A DNA stretch of 35,585 nt from NCBI GenBank assembly GCA_017451915.1, contig JAFTNJ010000028.1, forward strand, positions 1-35,585, written 5' to 3'. The position numbers and the translations under genes were made by a program. The stretch is from Clostridia bacterium. GTDB taxonomy: Bacteria > Bacillota > Clostridia > Oscillospirales > CAG-272. Below the pieces are notes generated by a model. It saw nothing but the letters and a program-made list of their open reading frames with translations. It was not told where the DNA came from and did not search any database. Shown one piece after another: positions 1,390-25,401 of the stretch. How positions within the stretch are numbered: the stretch's first letter is position 1; every line of letters starts with the position of its first letter.

Positions 1390-1390
1390 A

Positions 1391-1434
1391 AAGAACCCTG
1401 CCGCGCCAATGTAAGCGCGGCAGGGTTCTTTCTT
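1391..1434. terminator. Bidirectional terminator
   Basis: A 16-bp perfect stem (1391-1406 with 1415-1430) with an 8-nt loop. It serves the peptidase gene from the left and the convergent ABC transporter operon from the right; the ATPase stop codon sits at its edge. Confidence 0.85.
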
Positions 1435-2233: not shown

Positions 2234-2242
2234 GCCGTCACC

Positions 2243-2902
2243 TCACACCTTGTAATAGGACAGCTTCTTCTCGCAGTAGCGGAACAACAGGGTCAATCCG
2301 CCCACAAAGATCAAGAAGAACACGGCGATATAGAACAGCGGCCATACCAGGCCCTTGGACAAAAAATCCATCTCATTGATAAAGAAGATCTCGGCCACCG
2401 CGATCACGCGCGCCAGGGAGGTGTCCTTTACCAGAGTGATCACCTCGTTGCTCATGGGGGCCAGAATGCGCTTGACCACCTGCATCAGAATCACGGTGAA
2501 GAAGGTTTCCCGTGCCGTCATCCCCAGCACCTGCGCCGCCTCGTACTGGCCGCGGGGAGTGCCTTCGATGCCGCCTCGGTAGATCTCGGAGAAATAGCAG
2601 GCGTAATTGATGACAAAGGCCACCAACGCCGCAATAAAGCGTCCGTTCTCGCCGCCAAAGGGCTGCAAACCAAAGAGCATTCCGGGCACGTAGAATACCA
2701 CGAACAGCTGAAGCATCAGGGGCGTTCCGCGAATGATCCAAACCACCGTGCGGCAGAGCCAGGACAGGGGCTTGAACTTGGACATGGAGCCAAAGGAAAT
2801 GATCAGTCCCAGAGGGAGCGAAAAGACCAGGGTGAGCAAAAAGAGGAGACAGGTAACACCAAAGCCCTCAAAGAGCTTGGCGGTGATTTGCCAAAAATCC
2901 AT
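2243..2902 (-). CDS. Polar amino acid ABC transporter permease
   Basis: A 219-residue inner-membrane permease of the HisM/GlnP type with about five hydrophobic segments. The EAA loop that docks on the ATPase is visible (EIYRGGIEGTPRGQYEAAQ, about residues 104-122), followed by LGM. Its start lies 2 nt after the binding-protein stop. Only a weak GGTAAG precedes the ATG, so translation is probably coupled to the gene before it. Confidence 0.92.
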   Translation of the reverse strand: MDFWQITAKLFEGFGVTCLLFLLTLVFSLPLGLIISFGSMSKFKPLSWLCRTVVWIIRGTPLMLQLFVVFYVPGMLFGLQPFGGENGRFIAALVAFVINYACYFSEIYRGGIEGTPRGQYEAAQVLGMTARETFFTVILMQVVKRILAPMSNEVITLVKDTSLARVIAVAEIFFINEMDFLSKGLVWPLFYIAVFFLIFVGGLTLLFRYCEKKLSYYKV

Positions 2903-2904
2903 GC

Positions 2905-3729
2905 TTAGTTCTTACCGATATTGGCGATCAGATCGTTGGTCAGGCCATACTTCTCGGCCAGCGCGGCCAGCGTGCCGTCCTGAGAAAGCTTCTCAATGGC
3001 CTCGTTGATCTTTGCGGTCAGGTCACTGCCCTTGCGGCAACCAATGGCGTAAACCTCGGATTCGGGCTTCACGGCCTCGTTGATGGCCAGGGACGCATAG
3101 TCGCCCACGCCTACCATGGCCTTTGCCATCTGGTAGTCGATCACGGCAAAATCGGCGGTTCCGGCAACCAGCTCCATCAGAGCGGCGGCCTGGGAGGTAA
3201 AGGTAGTGATCTTCTTTGCGTCACCTGCCAACTCCTCGGCAACACCCTGACCCGAGGATCCACCCTCGGCAACGCCCTTCAGACCCTTGAAGGCCTCGGC
3301 AGTATTCAGCTCGGCAACACGGTCCGCCTTGGTGATCAGGCACTGACGGTTCTCCAGATATGCGTGGGTGAAATCTACGTACTCGGTACGGGAAACACCG
3401 TCGCTCTCCAGACCGTAGGTAAAGCCGTTCCAGATCAGGTCGATGGCACCGCCGTTGAGCTCAATGTACTTATTGGGCCAGCTGATGACCTGGAATTTTG
3501 CCTCCAGACCCAGCTCCTTGGCAACGGCCTGAGCGAACTCGGTATCAAAGCCGACCAGATTGCCGTCTTCATCGAAATAGTTCATGGGCTCGTACACGGT
3601 GATGCCGCATACGAAGTAGCCCTTTTCCTTGACGGCTTCCCAATCGCTCTTTTTTCCGCAAGAGGAAAATCCGAGGGTCATGGAGGCAAGAAGAAGGACT
3701 GCCAGTACAAGTGTTAAAATGCGTTTCAT
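2905..3729 (-). CDS. Amino acid ABC transporter substrate-binding lipoprotein
   Basis: A 274-residue extracellular solute-binding protein of family 3 (SBP_bac_3). It starts with a lipoprotein signal: MKRIL, a hydrophobic stretch and a lipobox ending in SSC, so Lgt (encoded in this window) would lipidate it. The ligand-domain pattern GYFVCGITVYEPMNY...GFDTEFAQAVAKELG is typical. The ATG at 3729 is chosen because GAAAGGA lies 9 nt upstream; a longer in-frame start exists at 3750 but would put extra polar residues before the signal peptide. The exact ligand (Gln, Arg, His or Cys) cannot be told. First gene of the operon. Confidence 0.92.
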   Translation of the reverse strand: MKRILTLVLAVLLLASMTLGFSSCGKKSDWEAVKEKGYFVCGITVYEPMNYFDEDGNLVGFDTEFAQAVAKELGLEAKFQVISWPNKYIELNGGAIDLIWNGFTYGLESDGVSRTEYVDFTHAYLENRQCLITKADRVAELNTAEAFKGLKGVAEGGSSGQGVAEELAGDAKKITTFTSQAAALMELVAGTADFAVIDYQMAKAMVGVGDYASLAINEAVKPESEVYAIGCRKGSDLTAKINEAIEKLSQDGTLAALAEKYGLTNDLIANIGKN

Positions 3730-3778
3730 AATGTTTTTCCTTTCTATCACTTTAGTTTGCTAAAGCGTTGATGCTGCT

Positions 3779-3807
3779 ATTATACTACACTTTCCCCGGT
3801 TTGTAAA
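3779..3807 (-). promoter_or_regulatory. Sigma-A promoter of the amino acid transporter operon
   Basis: On the minus strand: TTTACA (3802-3807), a 17-bp spacer and TATAAT (3779-3784), about 50 bp before the ATG at 3729. Confidence 0.75.
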
Positions 3808-3869
3808 GGGGGTTTTGGAAAAAAGATCGGCAAAATGCGGGAAACAGAGAAAGAAGCTTCCTAAATTTA

Positions 3870-3902
3870 CAAAAAATCCGCCGAGCACACGGCTCGGCGG
3901 AT
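3870..3902 (-). terminator. Terminator of the ymfF-ymfH-lgt-folD operon
   Basis: An 11-bp stem (3876-3886 with 3892-3902) followed on the minus strand by a T-run. It lies about 50 nt after the folD stop codon. Confidence 0.85.
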
Positions 3903-3950
3903 GGAGGGAGGCAAAAAGCACTCCGGATTCGGATTCCTGCAACAGGGGCG

Positions 3951-4793
3951 TTACTTCTTTGCCGCCGTCAGGGTATTCTGCAGCAGCATGGTAATCGTCA
4001 TGGGGCCAACGCCGCCCGGCACCGGGGTGATGGCCGACGCGATGGGCTCGACCTCGGCAAAATTGACGTCTCCCGTCAGCTTGCCGTCGGCGCGGCGGTT
4101 CATTCCCACGTCAATGACCACGGCACCCGGCTTGACCATATCGGCGCCTACGAAATCGGCGCGACCGATGGCCACCACCAGAATGTCGGCCTCACGGGTC
4201 ACCTCGGCCAGGTTTTTGGTGCGGCTGTGGCAGACCGTAACCGTGCCGTTGGCGTGGAGCAAAAGCATGGCCATGGGCTTGCCAACGATGTTGGAGCGTC
4301 CGATCACCACGCAATTCTTGCCCGCGGGATCAATGCCGCTCCGCTCCAGGAGTGCCATAACGCCCGCAGGGGTGCAAGGAAGAAAATCATAGTCTCCAAT
4401 CATGATCTTACCCACGTTATAAGGGTGGAACGCGTCCACGTCCTTTTTGGGATCGATGCGAAGAAGCACCTCGGTCTCGTCCAGGTGCTTGGGAAGGGGC
4501 AGCTGCACCAGGATGCCGTGGATCTGTTGGTTGGCGTTGAGCTCGTCCACCAGAGCGTTCAGCTCGGCCTGGGTGGTTTCGGCAGGCAGGCGGTGCACCT
4601 GGGAATAAAAGCCCACCTGCTCGCAGGCCAGTGCCTTGTTGCGCACGTAGACCTGGGACGCGGGATCCTCTCCCACGATCACCACTGCCAAGCCGGGAGT
4701 ATATCCCCGTTCCGCCACAAAGGCAGCGGTCTGTTCCTTAATTTCCTCTCGGATCTGCGCCGAGATCGCTTTGCCGTCAATTCGAATTGCCAT
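3951..4793 (-). CDS. folD: Bifunctional methylenetetrahydrofolate dehydrogenase / cyclohydrolase
   Basis: FolD interconverts 5,10-methylene-THF, methenyl-THF and 10-formyl-THF in the cytoplasm, supplying one-carbon units for purine synthesis. The 280-residue length is standard. Visible motifs are [10 protein letters not shown] with the catalytic lysine, QLPLPKHLD, the nucleotide-binding [10 protein letters not shown] and the C-terminal PGGVGPMTI. The ATG at 4793 is used: GGAGGA lies about 14 nt upstream and the protein begins MAIRIDG as in other FolDs; the longer open frame upstream is antisense-like lgt sequence. It overlaps the end of lgt by 17 nt, so translation is likely coupled. Confidence 0.96.
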
Positions 4794-9360: not shown

Positions 9361-9412
9361 TTTATCGCCGTTTCGCCTTTGTATTACAAAGGCATAGGGC
9401 TTGGCCCATCCT
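9361..9412. repeat. Left-end repeat of the RAYT element
   Basis: TTTCGCCTTTGTATTACAAAG with the perfect palindrome CTTTGTA-T-TACAAAG, followed by a GGGCT...ATCCT segment. The same sequence in the same orientation occurs at 30384-30432. The RAYT stop codon lies inside it. Confidence 0.75.
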
Positions 9413-9947
9413 CCGATTCTTCTGTGTATAATTCATCGTAATACCAACGGATAGGATTTTCATAAATATAATTCGATCTTGTTTTGTAATCTTCTTTATT
9501 TCGTATCACATGTTCAATAAATGATTTTTGCCAAATAGGTCTACCAACCTTTTTTGTCACCGCTCCTTTGAACTGCTTCACCATCCGTTCCACCGTAGGG
9601 GCGACCTGTGGTCGCCCGTATTCATCGGCAGAAATAACAACCATTATATGTAGGTGATTCGGCATAATCACATAGGAATATAGTGATACCGCAGGATATG
9701 TTTGATTCCATCGTTCTAATTCGTCTAAAACGATCTTACCTATATTTGATAATGGCAGATTTTGCGGGCGAACACAGTTCGCCCCTACGGAACGCCAATT
9801 AAATTTCTGCGGATCAATCGATCCGTTCCAAAAGTAATTCTTTCTGTTTTCCGTACAGATCGTTACAAAATATGCACCGGGAGAACTATAATCATAATTC
9901 TTTAACCGTATATCTTTTCTTTTCGGCAATTCTTTTTCCTTATCCAT
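9384..9947 (-). CDS. REP-associated tyrosine transposase (RAYT, Y1/HUH family)
   Basis: A 187-residue single-domain HUH nuclease related to IS200/IS605 TnpA that acts on REP palindromes. The N-terminus LKNYDYSSPGAYFVTICTE and the metal-binding HUH motif in MPNHLHIMV are clear, as is the C-terminal WQKSFIEHVIRNKEDY segment with the likely catalytic tyrosine. The ATG at 9947 is chosen because GGGTGATGAA lies just before it and the promoter overlaps any longer frame. Two REP palindromes lie inside the coding sequence (9595-9617 and 9766-9787) and are translated in frame as GRPQVAPT and GANCVRPQ. Confidence 0.9.
   Translation of the reverse strand: MDKEKELPKRKDIRLKNYDYSSPGAYFVTICTENRKNYFWNGSIDPQKFNWRSVGANCVRPQNLPLSNIGKIVLDELERWNQTYPAVSLYSYVIMPNHLHIMVVISADEYGRPQVAPTVERMVKQFKGAVTKKVGRPIWQKSFIEHVIRNKEDYKTRSNYIYENPIRWYYDELYTEESEDGPSPMPL
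9595..9618 (+). repeat. REP palindrome inside the RAYT gene
   Basis: GTAGGGGCGACC-tgt-GGTCGCCC: an 8-bp perfect palindrome (9599-9606 / 9610-9617) with the GTAG head also found in the other REP units here. Confidence 0.85.
9766..9790 (-). repeat. Second REP palindrome inside the RAYT gene
   Basis: GGGCGAAC-aca-GTTCGCCC followed by CTACGG. It is the same unit in the opposite orientation. Confidence 0.85.
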
Positions 9948-9950
9948 TTC

Positions 9951-10012
9951 ATCACCCACACTATTATAACACAAAATCGGCAGAGGAAGCAATCCCCCTG
10001 CCAAAATTTGTT
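9951..10012. repeat. Right-end repeat of the RAYT element, with promoter
   Basis: CTATTATAACAcAAAAtCGGCAGAG...CTGCC recurs at 30581-30626 in the same orientation. On the minus strand it contains TATAAT (9963-9968) with TTGCTT 18 bp further upstream, a plausible RAYT promoter that would give a very short leader. Confidence 0.7.
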
Positions 10013-15225: not shown

Positions 15226-15257
15226 GCCGTTCCGAAAGAATTTCTTCGAAAAGGGTC

Positions 15258-15292
15258 GAAAAAAGTGGCCCGCCCCAAAAGGGGCAGGCCAC
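15258..15292 (-). terminator. Terminator downstream of the nuclease gene
   Basis: GTGGCC-t-GCCCC / GGGGC-g-GGCCAC hairpin (15265-15292) followed by seven T on the minus strand. It may be the original terminator of guaA left behind when the island was inserted, since it lies outside the island's candidate ends. Confidence 0.8.
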
Positions 15293-15411
15293 GGGAAGTT
15301 TTTTTCACTCGCTCCTGAAAAACAAATCGTAAACAGATTTGCTTATGGGATTTAGCTCAAGGTCTTAGGATTATTTCAATCATTTAGACGGCAAGGACTA
15401 TCTGATTTTTT

Positions 15412-15428
15412 GTTGCCATAGTGTTGCC
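15412..15428 (+). repeat. Paired GTTGCC motifs, left side of nuclease segment
   Basis: GTTGCC at 15412-15417 and 15423-15428 are 11 bp apart, like integrase arm-type sites. A matching pair lies at 17604-17620, beyond the other end of the nuclease gene. In 15293-15448 nothing else is recognised. Confidence 0.5.
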
Positions 15429-15448
15429 GCATGGTAATAAAAGATTGA

Positions 15449-17485
15449 TCAAAATCCCTTTTCAATTGCATCTGCCAATGCTCGTAATCTGTTGACACAA
15501 TGCTTTTCACCTTGAATTGCATAGGTGGTGTTTTCAACAGAGGATGCTTTTTTAACTTGTGATAGAATTCCAATCTCTTCTTTTGATAGTGTGCTAAAAG
15601 CATTAATCAACTCTTCAAGCGAAGGCGATAACTCAGTTCTACGCAAAAGGAAGTACAAATCTCTTGCAGAAAGACTATCCATGGCATCTTGCTCTTGCTT
15701 AAATGTAGAAACAACAAGGGTAATTATGTCTTGTTCTCGTTTTCTGGTTGCAATCAACTCATCTAATTGTACCATTCCGTTTGGAACTTTAAAAAGTGTT
15801 GCGATTTCTGTTAAGGAAAGACCGAGTTTTCGAGCACGCTGCGCAGTATCTCTTAATTCCTCGTCAGTGATTAATGCAAAGCCTTTTTTGCGCGCATGAT
15901 TCTTAAGTGTATCTCCTCCAAACCCCGGTCCAATTATTGCCACATACTCAGCTGCATTTTTTTCTTTGTGAGTTTCTATTGCCACATCACTCACATCGCC
16001 ATGTGAAACAATTCCATTTGACTTGGATTTACCGTCGACTACTGCTGTGTTTATTTTCCCTTCCGAATCTTTCCAACGAACAACAACATCAGTATTTCCG
16101 GAACCACCAATTCGCTTTGCTTCAAACCCCATATAGTCAAAAACTGCAGCTATTGCTTCTTCAAACGCAACTCCAGACTGTTTTCCATCTGCCACGGGAT
16201 TTCGTGCTGAAGTACTCAACAAATCAAAAATGTCCGGTTCTTTAGAAACCACGGAAACAGAGGTTGTTTCTGCAAATGAAACAGAACCGGGAGTTATATC
16301 ATCGGGAATAGGTTCTGCCAACGGCAATTCGGATATAAATTTTTTCCCCAGCTGAGTGGCTTTTACATGTAGATACTGCGTTTCTTCCAAAAGCCCAGCT
16401 TCAAGGAGAAATCCCATTATCCATCTGGCCTTTTCTGTATTGATTCCATACTGTTTAGCCTGCGCATAGATTTCATTTCTGGTAACTACTTTTTCTGAAA
16501 AAGCAACCATTTCACCAACAAATCGTTTATGAGAATGGATGATTCTGATAAAATCTAAATCATTTCCAGTGTCACACCAGGCTTTTGCTGCCGATGTTGC
16601 AACATATACATTACGACCAACCTCTTCTATTAATCCATCAGCTTTTAGAAAGGGCATCATTGATTCAACACTACTGTTTTTCAAATTAAACTCATCTTCG
16701 ATAAACTTAAACAAGTCTGAACGAGAAACTTTTTCAAACGCAAATTGGATTATTGTTCGTAGGTTCTCGATTCTGTTCGGACTTGGCACCCAAATATTAT
16801 AGGTGTTCCGTTTGTTATGCATGATTGGATCAGAGCCTAATCTTACTAGAAGCTCTTTTATTTCTGCAGGAGGAGGCGCAATAGTGATTTCTTCATTGTA
16901 ATCTAGTTCGAAATTAACAGCATCCGGTGATAAAACAATCCACTCATCGATTGCTTTTTTTCCGTCTTCTGTTAACCCCCACTTTCTATTGCCTACACTC
17001 TCTATCAGGCCAAGAACTTCTAACCAATCCATTCTGCGGCGCGTATTACTTAGATTTGTCCAATCTAAACAAAAATCTCGGCATAATTCCTTATCTACAT
17101 CTTCTACAGTTTTTGATTCATGCGAGAGTAAATCTAAAACCTCTCCGACAAGTCTGTATCTATCATGCAAAAGATTCGCTAAAAACCTTCGAGACGGGGA
17201 TTTCAAGAAAGTATCACCAACATCGTTCAGACTTAAAACGCCAGAACGATTGCTTACCAACCCAACGCCTTGTAGAAAAGGAGCATAGGCGCGCCACGGA
17301 TAAGCCGTATCAACTGAATTCAGAATCGGAAAAGCACTAACATCAGTAATAGACGCAGTTCCAATTTGTTGAACCAATTCAACAACGATATTGAACCATT
17401 CTTGTTTTCCACCTCTCAGTTCAGGGATGGACCACCCTTTTCTCTTCCATTCGGATCTCTGTTTTTGCATATCATTAATTTTCAT
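15449..17485 (-). CDS. FokI-like nuclease with N-terminal winged-helix domains
   Basis: A 678-residue protein. Residues about 1-400 contain several winged-helix-like segments (e.g. WLEVLGLIESVG..GLTEDGKKA; FLLEAGLLEETQYLHV), as in DNA-recognition regions. Residues about 437-565 resemble the FokI cleavage domain: FEEAIAAVFDYMGF, then GGSGNTD (Asp466) and VVDGKS (Asp484, Lys486), then YVAIIGPGF, a helix ending NHARKKGFALITDEEL, and LSLTEIATLF. The D-x17-D-x-K spacing matches the FokI active site. No methyltransferase is nearby. The ATG at 17485 follows GGAG at 9-nt spacing. It is AT-rich and island-borne. A defence role is inferred, not shown. Confidence 0.7.
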   Translation of the reverse strand: MKINDMQKQRSEWKRKGWSIPELRGGKQEWFNIVVELVQQIGTASITDVSAFPILNSVDTAYPWRAYAPFLQGVGLVSNRSGVLSLNDVGDTFLKSPSRRFLANLLHDRYRLVGEVLDLLSHESKTVEDVDKELCRDFCLDWTNLSNTRRRMDWLEVLGLIESVGNRKWGLTEDGKKAIDEWIVLSPDAVNFELDYNEEITIAPPPAEIKELLVRLGSDPIMHNKRNTYNIWVPSPNRIENLRTIIQFAFEKVSRSDLFKFIEDEFNLKNSSVESMMPFLKADGLIEEVGRNVYVATSAAKAWCDTGNDLDFIRIIHSHKRFVGEMVAFSEKVVTRNEIYAQAKQYGINTEKARWIMGFLLEAGLLEETQYLHVKATQLGKKFISELPLAEPIPDDITPGSVSFAETTSVSVVSKEPDIFDLLSTSARNPVADGKQSGVAFEEAIAAVFDYMGFEAKRIGGSGNTDVVVRWKDSEGKINTAVVDGKSKSNGIVSHGDVSDVAIETHKEKNAAEYVAIIGPGFGGDTLKNHARKKGFALITDEELRDTAQRARKLGLSLTEIATLFKVPNGMVQLDELIATRKREQDIITLVVSTFKQEQDAMDSLSARDLYFLLRRTELSPSLEELINAFSTLSKEEIGILSQVKKASSVENTTYAIQGEKHCVNRLRALADAIEKGF

Positions 17486-17535
17486 AACTTTCAACTCCTG
17501 TAGAACTCAGATTCAGTAGCGCAAAAAAATGCATG

Positions 17536-17573
17536 ACTGCCCGGAGCCCTTCTTTCAAAGGATTCCGGGCAGT
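17536..17573 (-). terminator. Hairpin upstream of the nuclease gene
   Basis: ACTGCCCGGA / TCCGGGCAGT, a 10-bp stem with an 18-nt loop; on the minus strand CATGCA and then seven T follow. It is either a terminator shielding the nuclease gene from upstream transcription or an attenuator in its leader. Confidence 0.5.
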
Positions 17574-17603
17574 TATAAGCCAGTTGTGTATTCTATTGAA
17601 AAG

Positions 17604-17620
17604 ATTGCCATTTCGTTGCC
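17604..17620 (+). repeat. Paired (A/G)TTGCC motifs, right side of nuclease segment
   Basis: ATTGCC (17604-17609) and GTTGCC (17615-17620) are 11 bp apart and in the same orientation as the pair at 15412-15428. Confidence 0.5.
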
Positions 17621-17676
17621 ACGAAAGGCTCTAATCCTCAAAAACCTCGATTTTACAGGCTTTTTCTACCTCTGAA

Positions 17677-17688
17677 TCATTCCCACTC
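17677..17688 (-). other. guaA-tail-like 12-mer, candidate left attachment core
   Basis: On the minus strand this reads GAGTGGGAATGA, which encodes Glu-Trp-Glu-stop, the conserved end of GMP synthase genes. The resident guaA ends GAATGGGAATAA at 24360-24371 in the same orientation (10 of 12 identical). guaA 3' ends are known integration sites of genomic islands. Confidence 0.5.
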
Positions 17689-17780
17689 TTTGGCACGGAT
17701 TTAATCACCCGTGTTTTTTTGTGCTTTTTGGTCTCATTTTGGGGTTTTTCGTCTCTGTAATCTCTCGTGTCTCAAAATTA

Positions 17781-17800
17781 TTAGTACGATTTTAGTACGC
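17781..17800 (+). repeat. Left copy of 20-bp repeat (arm-type site candidate)
   Basis: TTAGTACGATTTTAGTACGC, two TTAGTACG units 11 bp apart. It matches 24280-24299 in 19 of 20 positions and lies about 93 bp inside the candidate left core. Confidence 0.65.
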
Positions 17801-17848
17801 ATAGGTTGAGAGACTAATGCGTGAAACGAACCTTTATTAACCGTCACT

Positions 17849-17877
17849 ATTATACCATTTTACAGCGATTTTGTCAA
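17849..17877 (-). promoter_or_regulatory. Perfect consensus promoter pointing out of the element
   Basis: Minus strand TTGACA (17872-17877), 17-bp spacer, TATAAT (17849-17854). It fires leftward across the candidate junction toward the nuclease gene, 364 nt away. No other strong promoter for that gene is seen. Confidence 0.8.
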
Positions 17878-17942
17878 CATAAACTACACGCAAAAAGAGA
17901 AAAAAGGAAGCAGGCGCGTCGCGCCAACTTCCTTTTTGATGT

Positions 17943-18134
17943 TTATATGTACATTCTTTCGTGAAAATACTTCTTGGACACCTTACCGCTAAACGTGAAG
18001 CATCCTTTTTCCTCAAGCTCTCGGTTGAGTATGTCTATCGTTCTATACGCAGTTGCACGTGAACAAGATACGATTTGTGCGACGTCTTTTGCATTGTAAA
18101 ATTCCATTTTTGGTGTTTCATTATTCTTATTCAT
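17943..18134 (-). CDS. Small helix-turn-helix protein (excisionase/regulator-like)
   Basis: A 63-residue protein. EFYNAKDVAQIVSCSRATAYRTIDILNREL is a clear helix-turn-helix of the AlpA/Xis type, followed by a beta wing (KGCFTFSGKVSKKYF). Proteins of this size beside a tyrosine integrase usually act as recombination directionality factors or repressors. AAAGGA lies 10 nt before the ATG. It could be the protein that binds the 18-bp iterons, but that is a guess. Confidence 0.7.
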   Translation of the reverse strand: MNKNNETPKMEFYNAKDVAQIVSCSRATAYRTIDILNRELEEKGCFTFSGKVSKKYFHERMYI

Positions 18135-18269
18135 ATTTATAAAAATCCTTTCTTATTTCATCTTTCATCAATATTTTTTATTCTATGTAGAGGTAAATTG
18201 CACTCTGGTTCTATTATAGAGTGGAATATCCAATCTCCTTCATGACTTTCGTAAAATAATTAGAAAAAT

Positions 18270-18337
18270 GAGAAATTTGAGACGTATGAGAAATTTGAGA
18301 CGTGTGAGAATATCATTACCGTTGATTTTTGACGCCA
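18270..18337 (+). repeat. 18-bp iterons upstream of rep, with conserved box
   Basis: GAGAAATTTGAGACGTGT occurs at 18270-18287 (one mismatch) and 18288-18305, then a decayed third copy begins. It is followed by ACGCCACTAAAATA, which also follows the iterons at 23085-23156. No spacers are present, so this is not a CRISPR array. Confidence 0.85.
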
Positions 18338-18399
18338 CTAAAATAATTTCAGACGTCAAACGAAGGACGCTGAAACTTCAATATCTCGAAATCCGTGTG

Positions 18400-18517
18400 T
18401 CAAGTGTCATATAATCCAAAGCTCTCAAAAAAGCCTTATACAACAAGGCTTAAGAACATCGTGCGGCGGATTATCATTCCCGCCGCACGATGTATCACGT
18501 GTCAGAAAGACACTTGA
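18400..18517 (+). other. Candidate rolling-circle origin: nested hairpins before rep
   Basis: The core is a 14-bp perfect stem (ACATCGTGCGGCGG, 18456-18469; partner 18480-18493) with a 10-nt AT-rich loop ATTATCATTC. It is preceded by AAGCCTT/AAGGCTT (18431-18451), followed by GTGTC-agaaa-GACAC (18499-18513), and all of it is bracketed by TCAAGTGTC/GACACTTGA (18400-18408 / 18509-18517). A GC stem presenting an AT-rich loop next to a rep gene is the usual layout of an HUH nick site. A TATAAT at 18410-18415 may belong to the rep promoter. The rest of 18135-18637 shows only the iterons. Confidence 0.6.
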
Positions 18518-18637
18518 TATATCAATAGGTAACTCAATAAAAGAGATTATCTTATTTATCATATTTGAATATTGAATTTATAGGTTTCTTTCGATTTGCC
18601 AGACGTTAAATTTTTAGAAATACGGAGGTATTTTCTT

Positions 18638-20005
18638 ATGGCAAAGAGAACTAAACCGCAGGATATCGACCTGCAGAACAAAACACAGTGCGACAAGCTC
18701 AAAGACCGTATGCGTGTAGTGTTTATGCGATTAACAGTTACAAACGAGGTAAAAGATACCGAAATGAAAAAGCTATACGGAAACACTTTCACCTACACCG
18801 AGGAATATATTAAAAAGTTCCTCAAAAGATATAAATGCATTGAATTCTGTTATATCTTGCACGAAAACGACGTTAACGAGTTCGGGGAAATCGAACAACC
18901 CCATTACCACATCTGTATGCGTTACGTTACCGATTCATCGTTTAGCTTTAAGGTGCTAAAAAAAGATTTTCCGTTCGGTATGATTCAAGTCGGTAGGTAT
19001 TGGAACTGTATGGTTCAATACCTTATCCACAAGAACAATAAGAAAAAGACACCTCACGAGGTGTCGGAAATCGTTACCAATATTGACCCTGCAACGCTCA
19101 AGTTTTACTTGGAAAGCGAATACGAAGACCCTAAAAAGAAGGAAGATAACGCCTTGACTGAGCTTTTACAAATGATTTTGGACGGCTTGAGTCGTAAGCA
19201 ATATCTTTTGATGTTGGATAACGAAAGAGAGAAATATTTACCGTTGCATAAGAAATACGCTTCAAAGATCAACGAGTTTTTCAAGATTCAAAAGACGTTG
19301 TTTGCGGAAAAAGCCAAGACACGCGATATTCAAACCATCTTTATTGAGGGCTCGGCAGGATCAGGCAAGTCTGCCTATGCGGTTTCACTCGCGGAGTCGC
19401 AGGGGCTTACATATTATGTTTCGGGCTCTTCCAATGACATTATGGAGGGCTATGATAACGAGGACGTTTTAATCATTGATGACGGTCGTTCGTCTATCTT
19501 CAAGTATAGCGATTTCTTGAAGATTATCGACCCTCACGTATCGACAGCCATTCAATCGCGTTATAGCAATAAGACGTTTGTGGGCAAGATGATTATAATT
19601 ACCTCTTACGTTCCGCTTTACGAGTGGTATCGCAAGTGTACCGATAATGACGAAATGGACAAGGATTATAACGGCTCGTCAGCTCGTGAACAGTTAAACC
19701 GCCGTATCAATACGGTTATAAAGGTTGATAAGGCACAAATCAAGGTTTACTATCACGATTGCAACGGTGAAGATACACTCCTTTACAGATTGCCGAACGC
19801 TACCTATCTTCTCAAAAGACAAGAGAACGCACCTAAAAGAATTGAGCGTGATGTTCTTTGGAGAGCCGCCGATCATCTTGCCGAAAAGTTGGAGGTCGCA
19901 GAAGAATATGAACAGTTCAAGGACGTTGATTTCCTTAAAGCCCCCGAAAGTAACATAACGGATACTGACGAATGGATTTATCGCACCGATGGCAAAGAAC
20001 CGTAA
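18638..20005 (+). CDS. CRESS-like replication initiator: HUH endonuclease plus SF3 helicase
   Basis: A 455-residue Rep. The N-terminal HUH nuclease has motif I-like FMRLTVT, motif II HYH (His89, His91) and motif III YLIHK (Tyr128, Lys132), the nicking tyrosine. A superfamily 3 helicase follows: Walker A GSAGSGKS (238-245), Walker B VLIIDD (277-282) and motif C IITSYVP (320-326), where the usual Asn is Tyr. This fusion is typical of pCRESS plasmids and eukaryotic CRESS-DNA viruses. It should nick the nearby origin and unwind DNA for rolling-circle replication. The ATG at 18638 follows GGAGG at 9 nt. It is AT-rich and unlike the host genes. Confidence 0.88.
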   Translation: MAKRTKPQDIDLQNKTQCDKLKDRMRVVFMRLTVTNEVKDTEMKKLYGNTFTYTEEYIKKFLKRYKCIEFCYILHENDVNEFGEIEQPHYHICMRYVTDSSFSFKVLKKDFPFGMIQVGRYWNCMVQYLIHKNNKKKTPHEVSEIVTNIDPATLKFYLESEYEDPKKKEDNALTELLQMILDGLSRKQYLLMLDNEREKYLPLHKKYASKINEFFKIQKTLFAEKAKTRDIQTIFIEGSAGSGKSAYAVSLAESQGLTYYVSGSSNDIMEGYDNEDVLIIDDGRSSIFKYSDFLKIIDPHVSTAIQSRYSNKTFVGKMIIITSYVPLYEWYRKCTDNDEMDKDYNGSSAREQLNRRINTVIKVDKAQIKVYYHDCNGEDTLLYRLPNATYLLKRQENAPKRIERDVLWRAADHLAEKLEVAEEYEQFKDVDFLKAPESNITDTDEWIYRTDGKEP

Positions 20006-20142
20006 TTTTTTGAAAAACTGTTATATCGTGATAATGATTCAACTATAGTATAGAAAGATTCATTATCGCAAGGTAAAGAATGTGATTGGTGAATTACTAT
20101 ATTGTGTTTCCTTTTTCCTGTCTTTCTTTTTTGTTTGGCCAT
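19978..20142 (-). CDS. Possible 54-residue basic protein (uncertain)
   Basis: An open frame with a purine-rich ribosome-binding stretch (AAAGGAAAGGAAAAGAA before ATG). The protein begins MAKQKRKTGKRKH and has no family I recognise. It is antisense to the last 28 nt of rep and its start lies inside an inverted repeat, so it may be chance. Confidence 0.2.
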   Translation of the reverse strand: MAKQKRKTGKRKHNIVIHQSHSLPCDNESFYTIVESLSRYNSFSKNYGSLPSVR

Positions 20143-20176
20143 TTCTTTTCCTTTCCTTTCTGCTAACACAATATAG
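20097..20176. repeat. 12-bp inverted repeat around a pyrimidine-rich tract
   Basis: CTATATTGTGTT (20097-20108) and AACACAATATAG (20165-20176) enclose 56 nt of almost pure pyrimidine on the plus strand. It lies just after rep, where a single-strand origin of a rolling-circle element could be. Confidence 0.5.
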
Positions 20177-20180
20177 GAAT

Positions 20181-20212
20181 GCCCCACCGCGTTGAGCGCG
20201 GTGGGGCTGTTT
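20181..20212 (+). terminator. Terminator-like hairpin after rep
   Basis: GCCCCACCGCG-ttgag-CGCGGTGGGGC (20181-20207) followed by a weak TGTTTCT. The gene-free stretch 20006-20432 otherwise holds the pyrimidine-tract repeat and the next promoter. Confidence 0.65.
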
Positions 20213-20294
20213 CTATTGATGGCGAAAAAAGAGCATATAAAAATAATCAATGATCTGTTTTATATGTTTAACCGCACAAAATTGTCAAAACGCC

Positions 20295-20323
20295 TTGAAT
20301 TATTCATAAATTTGTGGTATACT
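20295..20323 (+). promoter_or_regulatory. Promoter of the LRR lipoprotein gene
   Basis: TTGAAT (20295-20300), 17-bp spacer, TATACT (20318-20323); leader of about 100 nt. Confidence 0.6.
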
Positions 20324-20432
20324 CTTATGTACGATAACCATCAATTACAATATTTGATGTACGCTTTACGCCTTGTAAAAATCATCAATTATGGGGCGTA
20401 ATATTGAGTACATCAAAGGAAAGAAGGATTTT

Positions 20433-21758
20433 ATGAAAAAACTGCTTACTCTTTTGCTTACATTGGTATTGTTGACAACCGCATTTGTAAGCTGCGGCAA
20501 CAATGGCAATCCACCCAGCAACGCCCCTGAACAATCACAGCCCAACTCCAACGGTGATTCTACCACCGACGGCAACGAAACCACCGATGGCGAGGGCACT
20601 ACCGACGGCAACGAAACCACCGATGGCGAGGACACTACCGACGGCAATAGCGAAGCTACCTATAGCCAAGGTCTTTATTTCGAATTGCATAACGATAACT
20701 CGTCCTACTACCTCTCCAGCGTAGGCACTTGCAAAGATAGTGAAGTGATTATCCCTGCAGAATATAACAATCTGCCTGTAACGAGTATTGCTGCGTATGC
20801 TTTTGAAAATTGCACTTGGATCACAAAAGTAACGATTCCGGAGAGCGTGACCGACATTAGTCATAATAGCTTCAAAAATTGTCCTAACGCTGTTGAAACA
20901 CAGGACGGTGTTACCTATATAGGTAAGTGGTTGCTCGAATGCGACACAAATGTTGCCAATGTTGCGATTCGTGAAAATACGATTGGTATAGCAGAGTGGG
21001 CATTTTGGGGATGCAATCAGATTACAGAAGTTGTAATTCCCGACAGCGTAAAGTATATGAATATGGTGTTTAGAGAATGCTCATCCTTAAAGAGCGTTAC
21101 GTTACCCAATGGATTAACCAAAATTGGAAGGTTTGACGGTTGCCCCGCTTTGGAGTTTGTCACCATTCCTAATAGTGTAAAAACAATTGGAGATGGTGCT
21201 TTTTATGGTTGTAGTTCTTTGTCAACAATCACGCTTCCCGAAGGATTGACAACTATTGAAGACTCTGCTTTTTATAACTGTTCCTCTCTTGTAAGTATAT
21301 CTATTCCTGATAGCGTCGTGTCGTTGGGACACTCTGCCTTTAGTAACTGCGGATCGCTCAAAAACGTTAAGCTTTCGAATTCTTTAACAACAATTGAAAG
21401 CTCCCTCTTTTCAATGTGTTTTGCACTTGAAAGTATTGAAATCCCCGAAAGTGTAACTTGTATTAAAGACAACGCTTTCAATATGTGTAGCAATATTACA
21501 AATATATGCTTGCCAGATTCGGTAACAGGTGTCGGAGAAGGAGCCTTTGAATATTGCAATGGTCTCTCCTCAATAACGATGGGAAATGGTATTACTGAAT
21601 TTCCGTCTGATTTATTTAGCGGCTGTATAAAGTTGAAAACTATCGAATTCAAAGGAACAAAAACAGAGTGGGAAAACATCGTAAAAGATACGACGTGGAA
21701 TTACGATGTTAGCGGTTGTACCGTCAAATGCACCGATGGCGACATTACCATAAGATAA
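20433..21758 (+). CDS. BspA-type leucine-rich repeat lipoprotein
   Basis: A 441-residue surface protein. A lipoprotein signal ends in FVSC (Cys20), then a Pro/Asn/Ser linker and a TTDGNETTDGEG repeat (12 residues, about 2.5 copies). From about residue 95 to 420 there are roughly a dozen LRR_5 repeats of the form I-P-x-S-V-x-x-I-G-x-x-A-F-x-x-C-x-x-L. Such proteins bind host or microbial surfaces in gut and oral bacteria. AAGGA lies 4 nt before the ATG at 20433. It has its own promoter and terminator and is most likely cargo of the element. Confidence 0.92.
   Translation: MKKLLTLLLTLVLLTTAFVSCGNNGNPPSNAPEQSQPNSNGDSTTDGNETTDGEGTTDGNETTDGEDTTDGNSEATYSQGLYFELHNDNSSYYLSSVGTCKDSEVIIPAEYNNLPVTSIAAYAFENCTWITKVTIPESVTDISHNSFKNCPNAVETQDGVTYIGKWLLECDTNVANVAIRENTIGIAEWAFWGCNQITEVVIPDSVKYMNMVFRECSSLKSVTLPNGLTKIGRFDGCPALEFVTIPNSVKTIGDGAFYGCSSLSTITLPEGLTTIEDSAFYNCSSLVSISIPDSVVSLGHSAFSNCGSLKNVKLSNSLTTIESSLFSMCFALESIEIPESVTCIKDNAFNMCSNITNICLPDSVTGVGEGAFEYCNGLSSITMGNGITEFPSDLFSGCIKLKTIEFKGTKTEWENIVKDTTWNYDVSGCTVKCTDGDITIR
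20565..20654 (+). repeat. 36-bp tandem repeat in the LRR gene linker
   Basis: Copies at 20565-20600 and 20601-20636 differ at one base; a partial third follows. Period 36 keeps the frame, so copy number can change linker length without disrupting the protein. Confidence 0.9.
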
Positions 21759-21776
21759 TTCAAACAATACAGTTAA

Positions 21777-21805
21777 CCACGGCTCACAGCGAGCCGTGGT
21801 TTTTC
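21777..21805 (+). terminator. Terminator of the LRR lipoprotein gene
   Basis: ACCACGGCTC-acagc-GAGCCGTGGT followed by TTTT. Confidence 0.9.
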
Positions 21806-21820
21806 CGTTGCATAATGATA

Positions 21821-21858
21821 AAACGCAGAGCTTTAGTTTTAAGGCTCTGCGTTTTTTA
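21821..21858. terminator. Second, bidirectional terminator
   Basis: AAAACGCAGAGC / GCTCTGCGTTTT, a 12-bp stem with 12-nt loop, T-run on either strand. Confidence 0.8.
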
Positions 21859-21955
21859 CTACAGTAATGATATATAGCGGAAATCCGCAGATTTTTTGAA
21901 AGGGGTAGAATAACGTATGGTGTGAAAAAAGCAAGGATTTACAAAGCAAAGAGAG

Positions 21956-22081
21956 TTTTTAGAAGCCGTTTTTTGTGGCTTCTAAAAAGTAACATTGCAA
22001 AAATGTGAAGAAACGGTACGCGTGAAGCGCGTAACGCTTCTTCACACAAACAAAGGGATTTTTCACAAAGAAAAATCCTAC
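21956..22081 (+). other. Series of hairpins upstream of the second recombinase gene
   Basis: TTTTTAGAAGCC/GGCTTCTAAAAA (21956-21988), TGTGAAG...CTTCACA enclosing ACGCG/CGCGT (about 22004-22046) and GGATTTTTC-acaaa-GAAAAATCC follow one another. This may be a leader with RNA-level control or a recombination site. Nothing coding is seen in 21759-22148. Confidence 0.45.
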
Positions 22082-22148
22082 AAAAAGGTTGCTACTTTCC
22101 TGCGTAATGCGAAAAGTGGTTATAGTCTTAACACCAAGGAGAACGAAA

Positions 22149-23078
22149 ATGTCACGCAACAAAGAAAACATCAAAATGCAATTAAACCGCCGATTGAACG
22201 AGCTTTTACGCATTAGGCAGAAAAAGCAAAAGGAAACCAAAGGAACGCCCAATTATAACCCATCAAGAAGTGAGGGGGTGCATTCGGTTTCGTGTGCTGA
22301 CACCTACAGAAAAAGTTTGAATACGTTCGGTGAATATTGCAAAACGCAGAACATACGGAGCATAGACCAAATTGACGAAAAGGTAGTCGAGGGCTTTCTA
22401 CAAAGCAGACGGAACTTGTCGGGGCATACCATTTCAAAAGATTTGAGTGCCATTAACAAGGTTTTAGGCTCAAATTACACCCCAAGTCAATTTGGCTTTG
22501 CGAAACGTACTGCAGATAAGATCGTACATAACCGTGGCATTTTAACGGCAAATAGTACGGCACATTTAGACCGCAATCAAGCGGCTTTGTGGTTTGCCTA
22601 TTCTACTGGCTGCCGTCGTTCGTCTATCCTCACGACGACGGCTGATAAAGCTATCCGTGACGAACACGGAACTGTTATAGGTTTTGAATTTCGGGAAAAG
22701 GGAGGCAGGTGTAGAAACGCATTCCTATTGCCGTCCGAACAAGCAAAAATGACCGCTTACGTGGACGGACGTATCGCGGCATTGGGTGCAAATTGTAGGC
22801 TTATTGACTCTTGTGACAGTTCCTGTAACCCTCATTTTCAGCGTGGTTTGTATGCCCAAGAGTTGTACCAAGAAATGAAAGCGGCAAAAGATGATGGACG
22901 AGATATTTATAATGGTCATAGGGATATTTTCGTAAATCGAGAGCTTTACGAACGTGCTGTCTCACGCTATAAGTCCGACACCGTTTGCGGCTATAACCCC
23001 AGAATCTGTGCAGAAATCTCGCAGAGCCTTGGTCATAATAGAATTTCCGTGGTCATAGACTCGTATTTACGCAAATAA
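22149..23078 (+). CDS. Second tyrosine recombinase (short, integrase-like)
   Basis: A 309-residue protein. An N-terminal SAM-like core-binding domain (residues about 48-110) is followed by a catalytic domain with all expected residues: Arg in TGCRRS (about 156), Lys in EKGGR (184), HFQR (His229, Arg232), LGHNR (His296) and Tyr306 in DSYLRK at the very C-terminus. The catalytic domain is divergent and compact. It lacks the arm-binding domain of the other integrase, so a resolvase or accessory (XerC-like) role is plausible. AAGGAG lies 7 nt before the ATG at 22149. Confidence 0.75.
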   Translation: MSRNKENIKMQLNRRLNELLRIRQKKQKETKGTPNYNPSRSEGVHSVSCADTYRKSLNTFGEYCKTQNIRSIDQIDEKVVEGFLQSRRNLSGHTISKDLSAINKVLGSNYTPSQFGFAKRTADKIVHNRGILTANSTAHLDRNQAALWFAYSTGCRRSSILTTTADKAIRDEHGTVIGFEFREKGGRCRNAFLLPSEQAKMTAYVDGRIAALGANCRLIDSCDSSCNPHFQRGLYAQELYQEMKAAKDDGRDIYNGHRDIFVNRELYERAVSRYKSDTVCGYNPRICAEISQSLGHNRISVVIDSYLRK

Positions 23079-23084
23079 CACGTT

Positions 23085-23176
23085 GAGAAATTTGAGACGT
23101 GTGAGAAATTTGAGACGTGTGAGAAATTTGAGACGTGTGAGAAAATCGTGAGCGTGTATTTCTTACGCCACTAAAA
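23085..23176 (+). repeat. 18-bp iterons upstream of the integrase gene, with conserved box
   Basis: Three identical copies of GAGAAATTTGAGACGTGT (23085-23102, 23103-23120, 23121-23138), a degenerate fourth to 23156, then ACGCCACTAAAATA as in front of rep. The unit and the order of parts match 18270-18337. Confidence 0.92.
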
Positions 23177-23230
23177 TACTAACAGATGTGCAAACATCAA
23201 ATATTTACTTAAAAGAAAGGACACAGAATT

Positions 23231-24283
23231 ATGTCTGTCAAGAAAACCGCCAAGGGAACTTGGTACACAAAATTTTATTATACCGATTGGAACGGTGAGC
23301 GTAAGCAAAAGAAGAAAGAGGGCTTTAAGACAAGGGGTGAAGCCTTGGCATTTGAACGTGATTTCCTCAATAAACACGCAGGCTCTCCCGATATTACTTT
23401 CGGCAATTTGATTGAAAGATATATGCTTGATTGTCAAGCTCGTTTGAAGGAAACCACAATGGGCACAAAGAAGCATATGATTGAAACAAAAATATTGCCC
23501 TATTTTAAGGATTTACCCATTTCCAAGATTGACTCTCTCAAGGTCAGAGAGTGGCAAACACTCCTCATCAACGATGAAAACCACTATGAGCAAACATATC
23601 TCAAGGTTATACATAATCAGATGTCGGCAATTATGAACTATGCCGTTGAGTATTATAATCTGCCGAAAAACCCTGCCAAGAAATCAATGGGCAAGAAGCA
23701 AGCCGAGAATATGCAGTTTTGGACGGTTAATGAATTTCAAACCTTTATCAAGACCACCGAGGACGATATGACGGTAAATACCATTTTCAATCTCTTTTTC
23801 TTCAGCGGTATTCGCGAGGGTGAACTACTTGCCTTGACGTTGAATGATTTCGACTTTGATAAAAATACGGTTTCCATTACCAAGACTTATGCGAGGGTAA
23901 AGGGAAAGGACATTATTCAGCCCCCAAAGACTAAAAAGAGCAATCGCGTTGTGTCTTTGCCTCCCGATATTATGAACAAGGTTAAAGAATATTCAACGCA
24001 TTTGTACGCCTACAAGCCAAAGTACAGACTCTTTTCATATACCAAAGGTAATTTGCACCGTTGGATGACAAAGTATTGTGAAAAGTCGGGTGTGAAAAGA
24101 ATTCGTATACACGATTTACGCCATAGTCACGCAAGTTTGTTGGTAGAAAAGAACGTACCCATTAAGGCAATCAGCGAAAGACTTGGGCACGAAGATGTTC
24201 AAACAACGCTGAACACCTATTCCCACCTCTATCCGCAGAAGCAGGACGAAATAGCTAATCTTCTGTCAGCTTTTACGATTTAG
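23231..24283 (+). CDS. Tyrosine integrase (Tn916/phage type)
   Basis: A 350-residue integrase with three domains: AP2-like arm-binding (about 8-45), SAM-like core-binding (55-145) and catalytic (165-345). The active site is complete: Arg195 (GIREGE), Lys near 235, HDLRH (His294, Arg297), GH (His320) and Tyr330 in LNTYSHLY. It should join the element to the guaA 3' end. GAAAGGA lies about 9 nt before the ATG. The stop codon is inside the right 20-bp repeat. It converges on guaA. Confidence 0.95.
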   Translation: MSVKKTAKGTWYTKFYYTDWNGERKQKKKEGFKTRGEALAFERDFLNKHAGSPDITFGNLIERYMLDCQARLKETTMGTKKHMIETKILPYFKDLPISKIDSLKVREWQTLLINDENHYEQTYLKVIHNQMSAIMNYAVEYYNLPKNPAKKSMGKKQAENMQFWTVNEFQTFIKTTEDDMTVNTIFNLFFFSGIREGELLALTLNDFDFDKNTVSITKTYARVKGKDIIQPPKTKKSNRVVSLPPDIMNKVKEYSTHLYAYKPKYRLFSYTKGNLHRWMTKYCEKSGVKRIRIHDLRHSHASLLVEKNVPIKAISERLGHEDVQTTLNTYSHLYPQKQDEIANLLSAFTI

Positions 24284-24299
24284 TACGATTGTAGTACGC
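24280..24299 (+). repeat. Right copy of 20-bp repeat (arm-type site candidate)
   Basis: TTAGTACGATTGTAGTACGC; units at 24280-24287 and 24291-24298 are 11 bp apart. Overlaps the integrase stop codon. Confidence 0.65.
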
Positions 24300-24305
24300 T
24301 TGACA

Positions 24306-24354
24306 AAAAAGAAAACCCGAAACCCCTTGATATATAAGGGGTTTCGGGTATTTT
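24306..24354. terminator. Bidirectional terminator between integrase and guaA
   Basis: 14-bp perfect stem (24315-24328 / 24336-24349), 7-nt loop, flanked by A-rich and T-rich tracts so that it works for both converging genes. Confidence 0.9.
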
Positions 24355-24359
24355 TATCA

Positions 24360-25367
24360 TTATTCCCATTCAATCGTTCCCGTGGGCTTCGGCGTCAGGT
24401 CGTACAGCACGCGGTTGATGCCCTCTACCTCGGAGGTGATGCGCTGGGTGATCTTATGGAGAACCGCGTAGGGGATCTCCTCGATGGTAGCGGTGATGGC
24501 GTCCTTGGTGTTTACGGCGCGGATGATGGCCGGCCAGCCCTCGTAACGGCTGTCGTCGCGTACGCCAACGCTCTTGATGTCGGGAATCGAAACAAAATAC
24601 TGCCACACGGTCTTGGCCAGGCCGCAGTTGTCAAACTCCTCACGGAGAATGGCGTCGGCCTCGCGCAGCGCGTGCAAACGGTCACGGGTGATGGCACCCA
24701 GGCAACGCACGCCCAGTCCGGGACCCGGGAAGGGCTGACGGTCTACCATCTCGGAGGGCAGACCCAGGGCACGTCCAACCACGCGGACCTCGTCCTTATA
24801 CAGGAACTTAATGGGCTCGACCAGAGCAAATTTCTCGGCCAGGTCATCGGGAAGACCGCCCACGTTGTGGTGGGACTTGACGGCCTTTTTGCCCTCGCCC
24901 TGCTTAATGCTTTCCAAAATATCGGGATAAATGGTGCCCTGCGCCAGGAAGGAAACCTCCTCCAGCTTGCGCGCCTCCTCGGCAAACACGTTGATAAACT
25001 CGGCACCAATGATCTTTCTCTTCTTCTCGGGATCGGCAACGCCCTCCAAAAGATTCAAAAAGCGGTCGGTGGCGTCCACGTAGATCAGGTTGGCATCCAG
25101 CTGATTGCGGAAGACCTCGATCACGTTCTCGGACTCATTTTTACGCATCAGGCCGTGGTTGACGTGTACGCAGACCAGCTGCTTGCCAATGGCCTTGATG
25201 AGCAGGGCGGCAACCACCGAGGAATCCACGCCGCCGGACAGGGCCAGCAGCACCTTTTTGTTGCCTACCTGGGCGCGAACCTCCGCGATCTGTTCCTCAA
25301 TAAAAGTCTCGGCCAGGGTGGGAGTTGTGATCCGCTCCATGGATTCGGGACGCATATTCTCGTTCAT
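24360..25367 (-). CDS. guaA: GMP synthase, ATP-pyrophosphatase and dimerisation domains only
   Basis: Catalyses the ATP-dependent amination of XMP to GMP. The 335-residue protein begins directly in the ATP-pyrophosphatase domain (P-loop SGGVDSS, about residues 34-40) and ends with the dimerisation domain (RQPFPGPGLGVR; terminal GTIEWE). The about 190-residue N-terminal glutamine amidotransferase domain of the usual 510-525-residue bacterial enzyme is missing and is not in the neighbouring genes. It may use free ammonia or a separate GATase subunit, as in archaea. The ATG at 25367 is chosen because GGAGG lies 8 nt upstream; a TTG at 25382 would include the ribosome binding site. Its 3' end is next to the island. 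Confidence 0.93.
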   Translation of the reverse strand: MNENMRPESMERITTPTLAETFIEEQIAEVRAQVGNKKVLLALSGGVDSSVVAALLIKAIGKQLVCVHVNHGLMRKNESENVIEVFRNQLDANLIYVDATDRFLNLLEGVADPEKKRKIIGAEFINVFAEEARKLEEVSFLAQGTIYPDILESIKQGEGKKAVKSHHNVGGLPDDLAEKFALVEPIKFLYKDEVRVVGRALGLPSEMVDRQPFPGPGLGVRCLGAITRDRLHALREADAILREEFDNCGLAKTVWQYFVSIPDIKSVGVRDDSRYEGWPAIIRAVNTKDAITATIEEIPYAVLHKITQRITSEVEGINRVLYDLTPKPTGTIEWE

Positions 25368-25401
25368 TGGTTTTTCCTCCAAATCCTATTACTTGGTGCA
25401 A

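Follow-up and report, generated by a model that had tools for sequence, protein, structure and literature searches.

The replication genes of circular Rep-encoding single-stranded DNA (CRESS-DNA) viruses have been proposed to derive from integrated pCRESS plasmids of bacteria. According to Kazlauskas et al. 2019 (PMC6668415), YLxH is motif III of the replication proteins (Reps) of pCRESS4-8, 97.5% of the Reps outside pCRESS7 and 9 lie in elements site-specifically integrated in bacterial chromosomes, and the YLxH Reps stand at the base of the CRESS-virus assemblage, with pCRESS1-3 (p4M-like) placed beside circoviruses, nanoviruses and smacoviruses. Here, we analysed a 6.7-kb element at the 3′ end of guaA in a Clostridia bacterium (assembly GCA_017451915.1); the window is the whole contig JAFTNJ010000028.1 (C16, 35,585 bp), from a genome of 2.2 Mb in 79 contigs that is 87% complete. 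The element is very probably an integrative rolling-circle plasmid of the pCRESS YLxH type, inserted in the guaA 3′ end. Because chromosomally integrated pCRESS plasmids have been published (PMC6668415), its kind is already known; the lineage, the exact anatomy, a second recombinase and the origin comparison are new here.

With the integrated pCRESS4-8 plasmids of Kazlauskas et al., the element shares a YLxH Rep that joins an HUH endonuclease to a superfamily 3 (SF3) helicase, site-specific chromosomal integration, direct-repeat borders and the lack of a capsid gene. It differs from them in its distant Rep, which forms its own branch with that of one close relative, locus L011 (Clostridia metagenome-assembled genome RGIG4287, JAFTZI010000111), and is 22-28% identical to the other aligned YLxH Reps, and in its second tyrosine recombinase, here called YR2. 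The phytoplasma plasmid pCPa and its kin (pCRESS7) give the best-ranked named Rep matches (at most 31% identity); however, they are free plasmids with other genes and no annotated integrase. The plasmid pRGI00478 (HG796329) has a Rep 42% identical over the helicase part and a YR2-type protein (hhalign 98.3%), but it is a 3.9-kb circle on which neither a tyrosine integrase (Int) nor an excisionase (Xis) was found. The p4M-like elements (pCRESS1-3; from the order, class and phylum, and plasmid p4M) are alike in their chromosomal Rep, an Int in many cases and a hairpin on the rep strand, whereas their motif III is of the YxxK type, their Reps fall across a 100/100 branch and their origins carry the canonical nonanucleotide. 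The initial annotation had described the element as related to the pCRESS plasmids, the presumed ancestors of CRESS viruses; the pCRESS kinship stands, but it is to the YLxH type and not to the pCRESS1-3 branch beside circoviruses.

Borders of the element at guaA

The element extends from core to core over 17676..24371 (no strand), as delimited by guaA-end cores at both ends, an empty site in a genome of the same genus and base composition, its G+C content being 0.399 versus 0.555 for the window outside 15.0-24.5 kb. The gene guaA (24360-25382, minus strand) ends in GAATGGGAATAAT, and the right attachment (att) core, GAATGGGAATAAT at 24359..24371 (minus strand), consists of its last codons and stop. 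The left core, GAGTGGGAATGAT at 17676..17688 (minus strand), was recognized by its likeness to the guaA end, with 11 of 13 bases identical. The ends given in the initial annotation, 17677 and 24371, coincide with these cores. Five genes, all open, lie between them, namely xis on the minus strand and rep, a leucine-rich repeat (LRR) lipoprotein gene, YR2 and int on the plus strand; both this content and the two ends support the view that the element is complete. It occurs once in its genome, and ARAGORN found no tRNA in the window.

A guaA match was present in 28 of 35 same-genus genomes, and 20 downstream regions from 18 of these genomes were compared, four of them with less than 500 nt. The sequence 3′ of the guaA stop differs strongly between the genomes, and cores are found at guaA ends across the genus; a second direct core follows guaA in four of the 20 regions, and an inverted core in a fifth. 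In genome G019 (L051/L071), guaA joins directly onto the sequence that lies beyond the left core of the window (78% over 104 columns, E 3.7e-14); as read from sequence, G019 shows the empty site. In G017, Xis and an Int 46% identical to that of the window lie 1.0-2.2 kb 3′ of guaA.

Just inside both ends of the element stands TTAGTACGATTkTAGTACGC, that is, two copies of TTAGTACG 11 bp apart. The repeat search (family D8) placed these paired, arm-like repeats at 17781..17800 (TTAGTACGATTTTAGTACGC) and 24280..24299, both on the plus strand and identical at 19 of 20 positions, the right one overlapping the int stop codon. The pair had been considered as the att core and was dropped in favour of the guaA-end sequence; it is now taken as arm sites because of the two TTAGTACG copies 11 bp apart and because like pairs occur about 70 nt from other cores. 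Among 25 guaA flanks scanned, including the two of the window, paired direct repeats were present in seven, versus 0.91 expected, and in six of these seven the distance to the core is similar. Not counted were L027 and L044 (too short), L030 (a DITPKP spelling missed by the pattern) and L049, L050 and L052 (no guaA end). We read the paired repeats at guaA flanks as candidate arm sites of the respective integrases. Cores, arm-like repeats and empty site together indicate site-specific integration with att repeats, as in integrated pCRESS plasmids. A bidirectional, terminator-like hairpin identified by fold and repeat analysis (24309..24355, no strand) separates int from guaA.

Rep protein

Rep (18638..20005, plus strand, 455 aa) combines Rep_OBD (9.3e-10) with the PF00910 helicase (5.3e-7) and has the motifs PHYHI at residue 88, YLIHK (motif III) at residue 128 and GSAGSGKS at residue 238, in agreement with its initial description as an HUH endonuclease fused to an SF3 helicase. 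The tyrosine and histidine of YLxH and the Walker A residues were invariant in all nine aligned Reps, that of the window and eight others. A profile of these nine rows matched the solved replication-associated proteins 9pqq (3.8e-18) and 7lar (1e-9) in their helicase parts and RepB 3dkx (4.6e-8); it also matched many general ATPases. Among plasmids, 33 records were found, none covering 80% of the query and with at most 42% identity over the helicase part alone; phytoplasma plasmids came first, followed by those of Lactococcus, Staphylococcus, an uncultured plasmid, Lactiplantibacillus and Mycoplasma. As a single protein, Rep had no match in viral contigs.

In a midpoint-rooted tree of 23 Reps, with several long end branches and no virus of eukaryotes among the rows, the 100/100 branch divides the p4M-like side from the YLxH side, where the window Rep stands among 12 rows together with phytoplasma pCPa; its only firm pairing is with L011 (100/100). 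One phytoplasma Rep of the YLxH side has YMIH, and the motif III pattern had no match in the p4M Rep, whose group was taken from PMC6668415. By its HUH motif II, YLxH, SF3 helicase and tree grouping, Rep is assigned to the pCRESS YLxH type (pCRESS4-8), and it is a bacterial cousin of the circovirus and geminivirus replication proteins.

Rep is sparsely distributed. Counting the genome of the window itself in all cases, it was matched in one of 60 near relatives, 10 of 295 genomes of the order and five of 391 of the class, and with a 14-row profile in eight of 358 of the phylum and five of 35 of the genus. The phylum matches include four weak ones (E 1e-6 to 1e-5) and one broken by stops, and the four other genus matches comprise one with a stop and three short Reps in which the match is confined to the endonuclease part. 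In five of 12 further loci with a Rep, an Int lay nearby. Neither the tree nor the origin scan includes L083, L084 and L085, whose matches were weak or partial, the broken L133, or any of the four weak phylum matches and four other genus matches.

Candidate origin and nearest relative

The hairpin origin candidate of the initial annotation was borne out by folding and by conservation in L011. The hairpin (18456..18493, plus strand), a candidate double-strand origin with loop ATTATCATTC, has perfect 14-bp arms, and 144 bp separate its end from the ATG of rep. In a folding test, the surrounding 121 nt reached z = -9.3, and none of 200 shuffles did as well. In the L011 hairpin, which belongs to a Rep 75% identical to that of the window, ten loop bases (TTATCATTCC) are unchanged, and two stem pairs differ at both positions but remain complementary (pairs counted by eye). 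The loop of both reads TATCATTCC, a variant of the CRESS-virus nonanucleotide NANTATTAC, which itself is absent from the window hairpin. Both loci also have GTGTCAAGTGTCA 5′ of the hairpin (18397..18409, plus strand, in the window) and CGTGTCA with GACACTTG 3′ of it; these repeats are identical in L011 and may bind Rep. The origin region had no match in plasmids.

L011 thus resembles the window in its Rep (75-76% identical), the same hairpin origin and YR2 (55%); it differs in having a large serine integrase and an Mrr endonuclease as cargo (Mrr_cat 2e-34), its gene set being large serine recombinase, rep, Mrr endonuclease and YR2. No Int or Xis was found on its contig, which stops left of the element. 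The right end of L011 adjoins the first 66 positions of a truncated manganese-catalase (cotJC-type) gene, and another contig of the same genome starts at position 150 of the same manganese-catalase family. From these two examples, rep, YR2 and a variable cargo gene appear to form a core with an exchangeable integration module.

Integration module, phased repeats and cargo

Tyrosine integration modules of the Tn916/ICEBs1 type consist of an arm-binding Int, a Xis and paired arm sites at both ends. By sequence likeness, the element matches this scheme. Its Int (23231..24283, plus strand) combines Phage_integrase (2.6e-23) with the arm-binding domain Arm-DNA-bind_4 (1.8e-11), with Pfam, NCBIfam and PHROG matches. 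The Xis-like helix-turn-helix protein (17943..18134, minus strand, 63 aa) matches the NCBIfam ICEBs1 excisionase at 1.2e-10 (40.9 bits, under the model cut-off of 100) and PHROG 989, of unknown function, at 1e-21. Both proteins had been recognized initially, as had the surface LRR lipoprotein, here identified as a BspA-type LRR_5 protein (20433..21758, plus strand; 3.4e-80) with a lipoprotein-like N-terminus whose lipobox was read by eye.

Two arrays of TGAGANNNN, revealed by the repeat search on the plus strand, have about 85 bp in common and enclose precisely the rep-YR2 module. The left one (18269..18313, five copies in exact 9-bp phase) lies between xis and rep, and the right one (23084..23146, seven copies in 9-bp phase) just before int. 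They contain 18-bp repeats, twice at 18269 and three times at 23084, whose 16-bp part TGAGAAATTTGAGACG was found nowhere else in the genome within two mismatches. The initial annotation had listed iterons; repeats are indeed present at both places, but a role as Rep iterons is unlikely, since L011, which retains Rep and the hairpin, has no array match within three mismatches. In 394 genomes, 13 others gave single one-mismatch matches only, and a reversed-pattern control matched about two dozen; two viral contigs had a single exact match. The simplest reading, drawn from the thin evidence of one sequence pair, is that the hairpin and the GTGTCA repeats belong to Rep, and the TGAGA arrays to the Int/Xis module.

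A second tyrosine recombinase

YR2 (22149..23078, plus strand), identified by alignment and profiles, was overlooked in the initial annotation, which listed one tyrosine integrase. At Pfam cut-offs it shows the N-terminal SAM-like domain only; nevertheless, R, K, H, R, H and Y are invariant in all six aligned homologues, in the usual order of tyrosine recombinases. Its profile matched Cre first among solved structures, weakly (0.0035), and it is not close kin of Int (hhalign 0.2%). With the genome of the window counted, YR2 was found in two of 98 genomes of the family and, by profile, in 12 of 315 of the order, from which the loci of eight of the 11 other genomes were taken on. Four query recombinases were used to check 16 YR2 loci besides the window for an integrase: within the stretch covered, nine carry an integrase of the tyrosine or large serine type (in one case a fragment), and of the others four are circular plasmids and three are contigs of 7.8-11.6 kb. 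Since YR2 occurs on free plasmids and beside other integrases, this context suggests that its task is not integration but the maintenance of plasmids, for instance by resolving multimers.

As a single protein, YR2 had no match in viral contigs; relatives of YR2 were seen in the viral contigs L099, L100 and L101, with a large serine recombinase a few kb away in L099 and L100. Two large inverted repeats lie 5′ of YR2 at 21946-22046 of the window. The second, with arms TGTGAAGAA/TTCTTCACA, also precedes the YR2 of L012 at a different spacing; it was not adopted as a YR2 site because the whole repeat is 43 nt in one of the window/L012 pair and 34 nt in the other.

Proposed cycle and alternative explanations

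Under the integrative plasmid reading, Int and Xis would excise the element by recombining the two guaA-end cores, with the paired TTAGTACG sites as arm sites. Rep would then nick the loop ATTATCATTC of the hairpin, staying on the 5′ end via the tyrosine of YLIHK, and its SF3 helicase would unwind the excised circle for rolling-circle replication, while YR2 probably resolves multimers of the circle. The 9-bp phased TGAGA arrays probably bind a protein of the element, most likely Xis, which could couple excision with replication. Reintegration would restore the guaA stop and supply the element's own terminator, and the LRR lipoprotein would travel as passenger cargo. Because the two ends, an empty site and a candidate origin that is conserved are all available, excision and nicking can be tested directly.

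Several points weigh against this reading. The two cores mismatch at two of 13 bases, and the six like-spaced arm pairs represent three sequence types and so are not six independent cases. A single close relative of Rep was found, L011, with a different integrase, and its hairpin has lost one stem pair next to the loop. A dead element can still contain an intact int gene, and for YR2 and the TGAGA arrays the proposed functions are drawn from context alone.

The core mismatch would also fit a decayed relic, a former pCRESS plasmid that is now fixed and retained for its LRR gene or by chance, and so would the low spread, with a Rep match in none of the 59 other relatives. Nevertheless, none of the five reading frames is interrupted, the catalytic motifs of Rep, YR2 and Int are intact, the arm-like repeats agree at 19 of 20 positions and the hairpin is perfect, which makes a relic unlikely.

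A nested arrangement, in which a plasmid driven by YR2 (rep, LRR gene and YR2, from 18269 to about 23.1 kb) sits inside an older, minimal xis-int element with the TGAGA arrays as its attL and attR, is a little less likely still. The arrays do share their sequence and bracket the rep-YR2 module exactly, rep, cargo and YR2 stand together in L011, on whose contig neither Int nor Xis was found, and a pCRESS-type Rep accompanies a YR2-type protein on pRGI00478, a free circular plasmid. However, L011 has no array match within three mismatches, and YR2 need not integrate because it is mostly beside another integrase (nine of 16) or on a free plasmid (four of 16). The 9-bp phasing (five and seven units) also resembles a protein-binding array, and both arrays precede genes.

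That the block is an integrative and conjugative element (ICE), an integrative and mobilizable element or a prophage satellite with an incidental CRESS-like Rep is very improbable. Its Xis resembles that of ICEBs1, guaA is a published attachment site of ICEs and islands, and CRESS-like Reps occur in Inovirus-labelled records. However, Pfam, NCBIfam and PHROGs searches of the element proteins (E up to 1) revealed no relaxase except Rep and no type IV secretion or capsid gene, apart from weak hits of Rep through its P-loop, for example to a terminase PHROG (0.0045). The element proteins thus include no conjugation or mobilization genes in these databases, unless Rep serves, and no viral structural genes, as expected for an integrated pCRESS plasmid. 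Unlinked genes merely lying side by side, the outcome named at the outset as refuting the element, are scarcely credible: Rep and YR2 are each found elsewhere without the other, but the shared borders with arm-like repeats and the empty site largely contradict separate inheritance, and Rep and YR2 occur together in L011 too. The integrated CRESS-type plasmid at the guaA 3′ end, as first proposed, is the reading on which the Rep motifs, tree, Int and Xis, cores, arm-like repeats and empty site agree.

Virus-type origins in the p4M-like branch

The nonanucleotide NANTATTAC was scanned for in hairpins with arms of at least 7 bp, on both strands of 19 Rep loci (about 232 kb) that had been gathered by Rep similarity alone. 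The scan gave eight sites, versus 0.35 per shuffled set; each is in a different p4M-like locus, and all are on the rep strand. They lie in eight of the nine chromosomal p4M-like loci (L078, L079, L081, L082, L086, L130, L131 and L132); the exceptions are the ninth, L080, with TATCATTGC, and the plasmid p4M, with TAGTGTTAC. Six of the hairpins are within about 110 bp of the frame start used, and those of L131 and L132 stand at -383 and -728; the one in L082, among the six, lies inside the open frame, before the likely ATG. None of the nine YLxH loci scanned had NANTATTAC in a hairpin; for some of the nine, the upstream region covered was short (L076) or a circular record was scanned as linear. 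A looser pattern that includes the window loop gave 14 sites versus 0.95 per shuffled set; it proves nothing alone, because it was chosen after the loop had been seen and chance sites were found.

We consider it somewhat more likely than not that a rep-strand NANTATTAC stem-loop is general in p4M-like pCRESS, that Rep and origin crossed between plasmids and CRESS viruses as a unit, and that the YLxH variant TATCATTCC is perhaps older. This comparison of kin suggests that the viral nonanucleotide is already present in bacterial p4M-like elements, next to Reps placed beside those of circoviruses, nanoviruses and smacoviruses; the direction of transfer can therefore be asked of Rep and origin together. 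The nonanucleotide occurs nowhere in the main text of PMC6668415, although its supplement may hold more, and no description of a pCRESS nonanucleotide was found in the accessible parts of PMC8780604, PMC7000223 and PMC10378824 or among the matches listed. The accessible part of PMC8780604 treats how Reps, including those of pCRESS, may bind the viral nonanucleotide and describes no pCRESS origin, and that of PMC3154185 (2011) reports a variant with eight of nine bases in a phytoplasma plasmid.

The genome of the window itself holds one of these loci, L130 (G000:C27), with a hairpin at 357-391, rep at 437-1378, an FtsK-type gene and an integrase. Its stretch 357-4237 is a second pCRESS element of the genome, of the p4M-like kind; its TAGTATTAC hairpin is perfect, and the element adjoins a gene resembling ychF by eye. 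The start of this contig (1-117) repeats an inner piece of rep and then continues in another reading frame (by eye), which may be a contig-end artefact or a real duplication.

Neighbouring cassettes and other features

The initial annotation had seen one AT-rich block ending at guaA. The low G+C content holds, but the block begins at about 15.3 kb because another guaA cassette adjoins the element. This second cassette (about 15304-17675) abuts the left core, and no recombinase was seen in it; its one long gene (15449-17494) has a weak Mrr_cat match (3.2e-4, at the family cut-off), and both its ends match a 1.1-kb single-gene guaA cassette of G019 (89% over 123 and 78% over 104 columns). The native guaA terminator, located by eye at about 15240-15298, is now 9 kb from guaA. 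In G009 and G032 (L057, L065), cassettes of 2.35 kb between two guaA cores hold, beside a ToxN/AbiQ gene, one other gene, which in G009 is TPR-like; the ToxN/AbiQ protein of G009 matches PF13958 (1.7e-46) and PADLOC AbiQ (2.1e-37), and G032 was judged by its like reading frame only. Cassettes that lack a recombinase and hold one gene or two are found at guaA, including some with defence-like genes (ToxN/AbiQ, Mrr-like) and the one in tandem with the plasmid here; guaA integrases could move them in trans. Elsewhere in the window, the AT-rich stretch 9384-10004 holds a gene that by eye presumably resembles a REP-associated (Y1, HUH) transposase.

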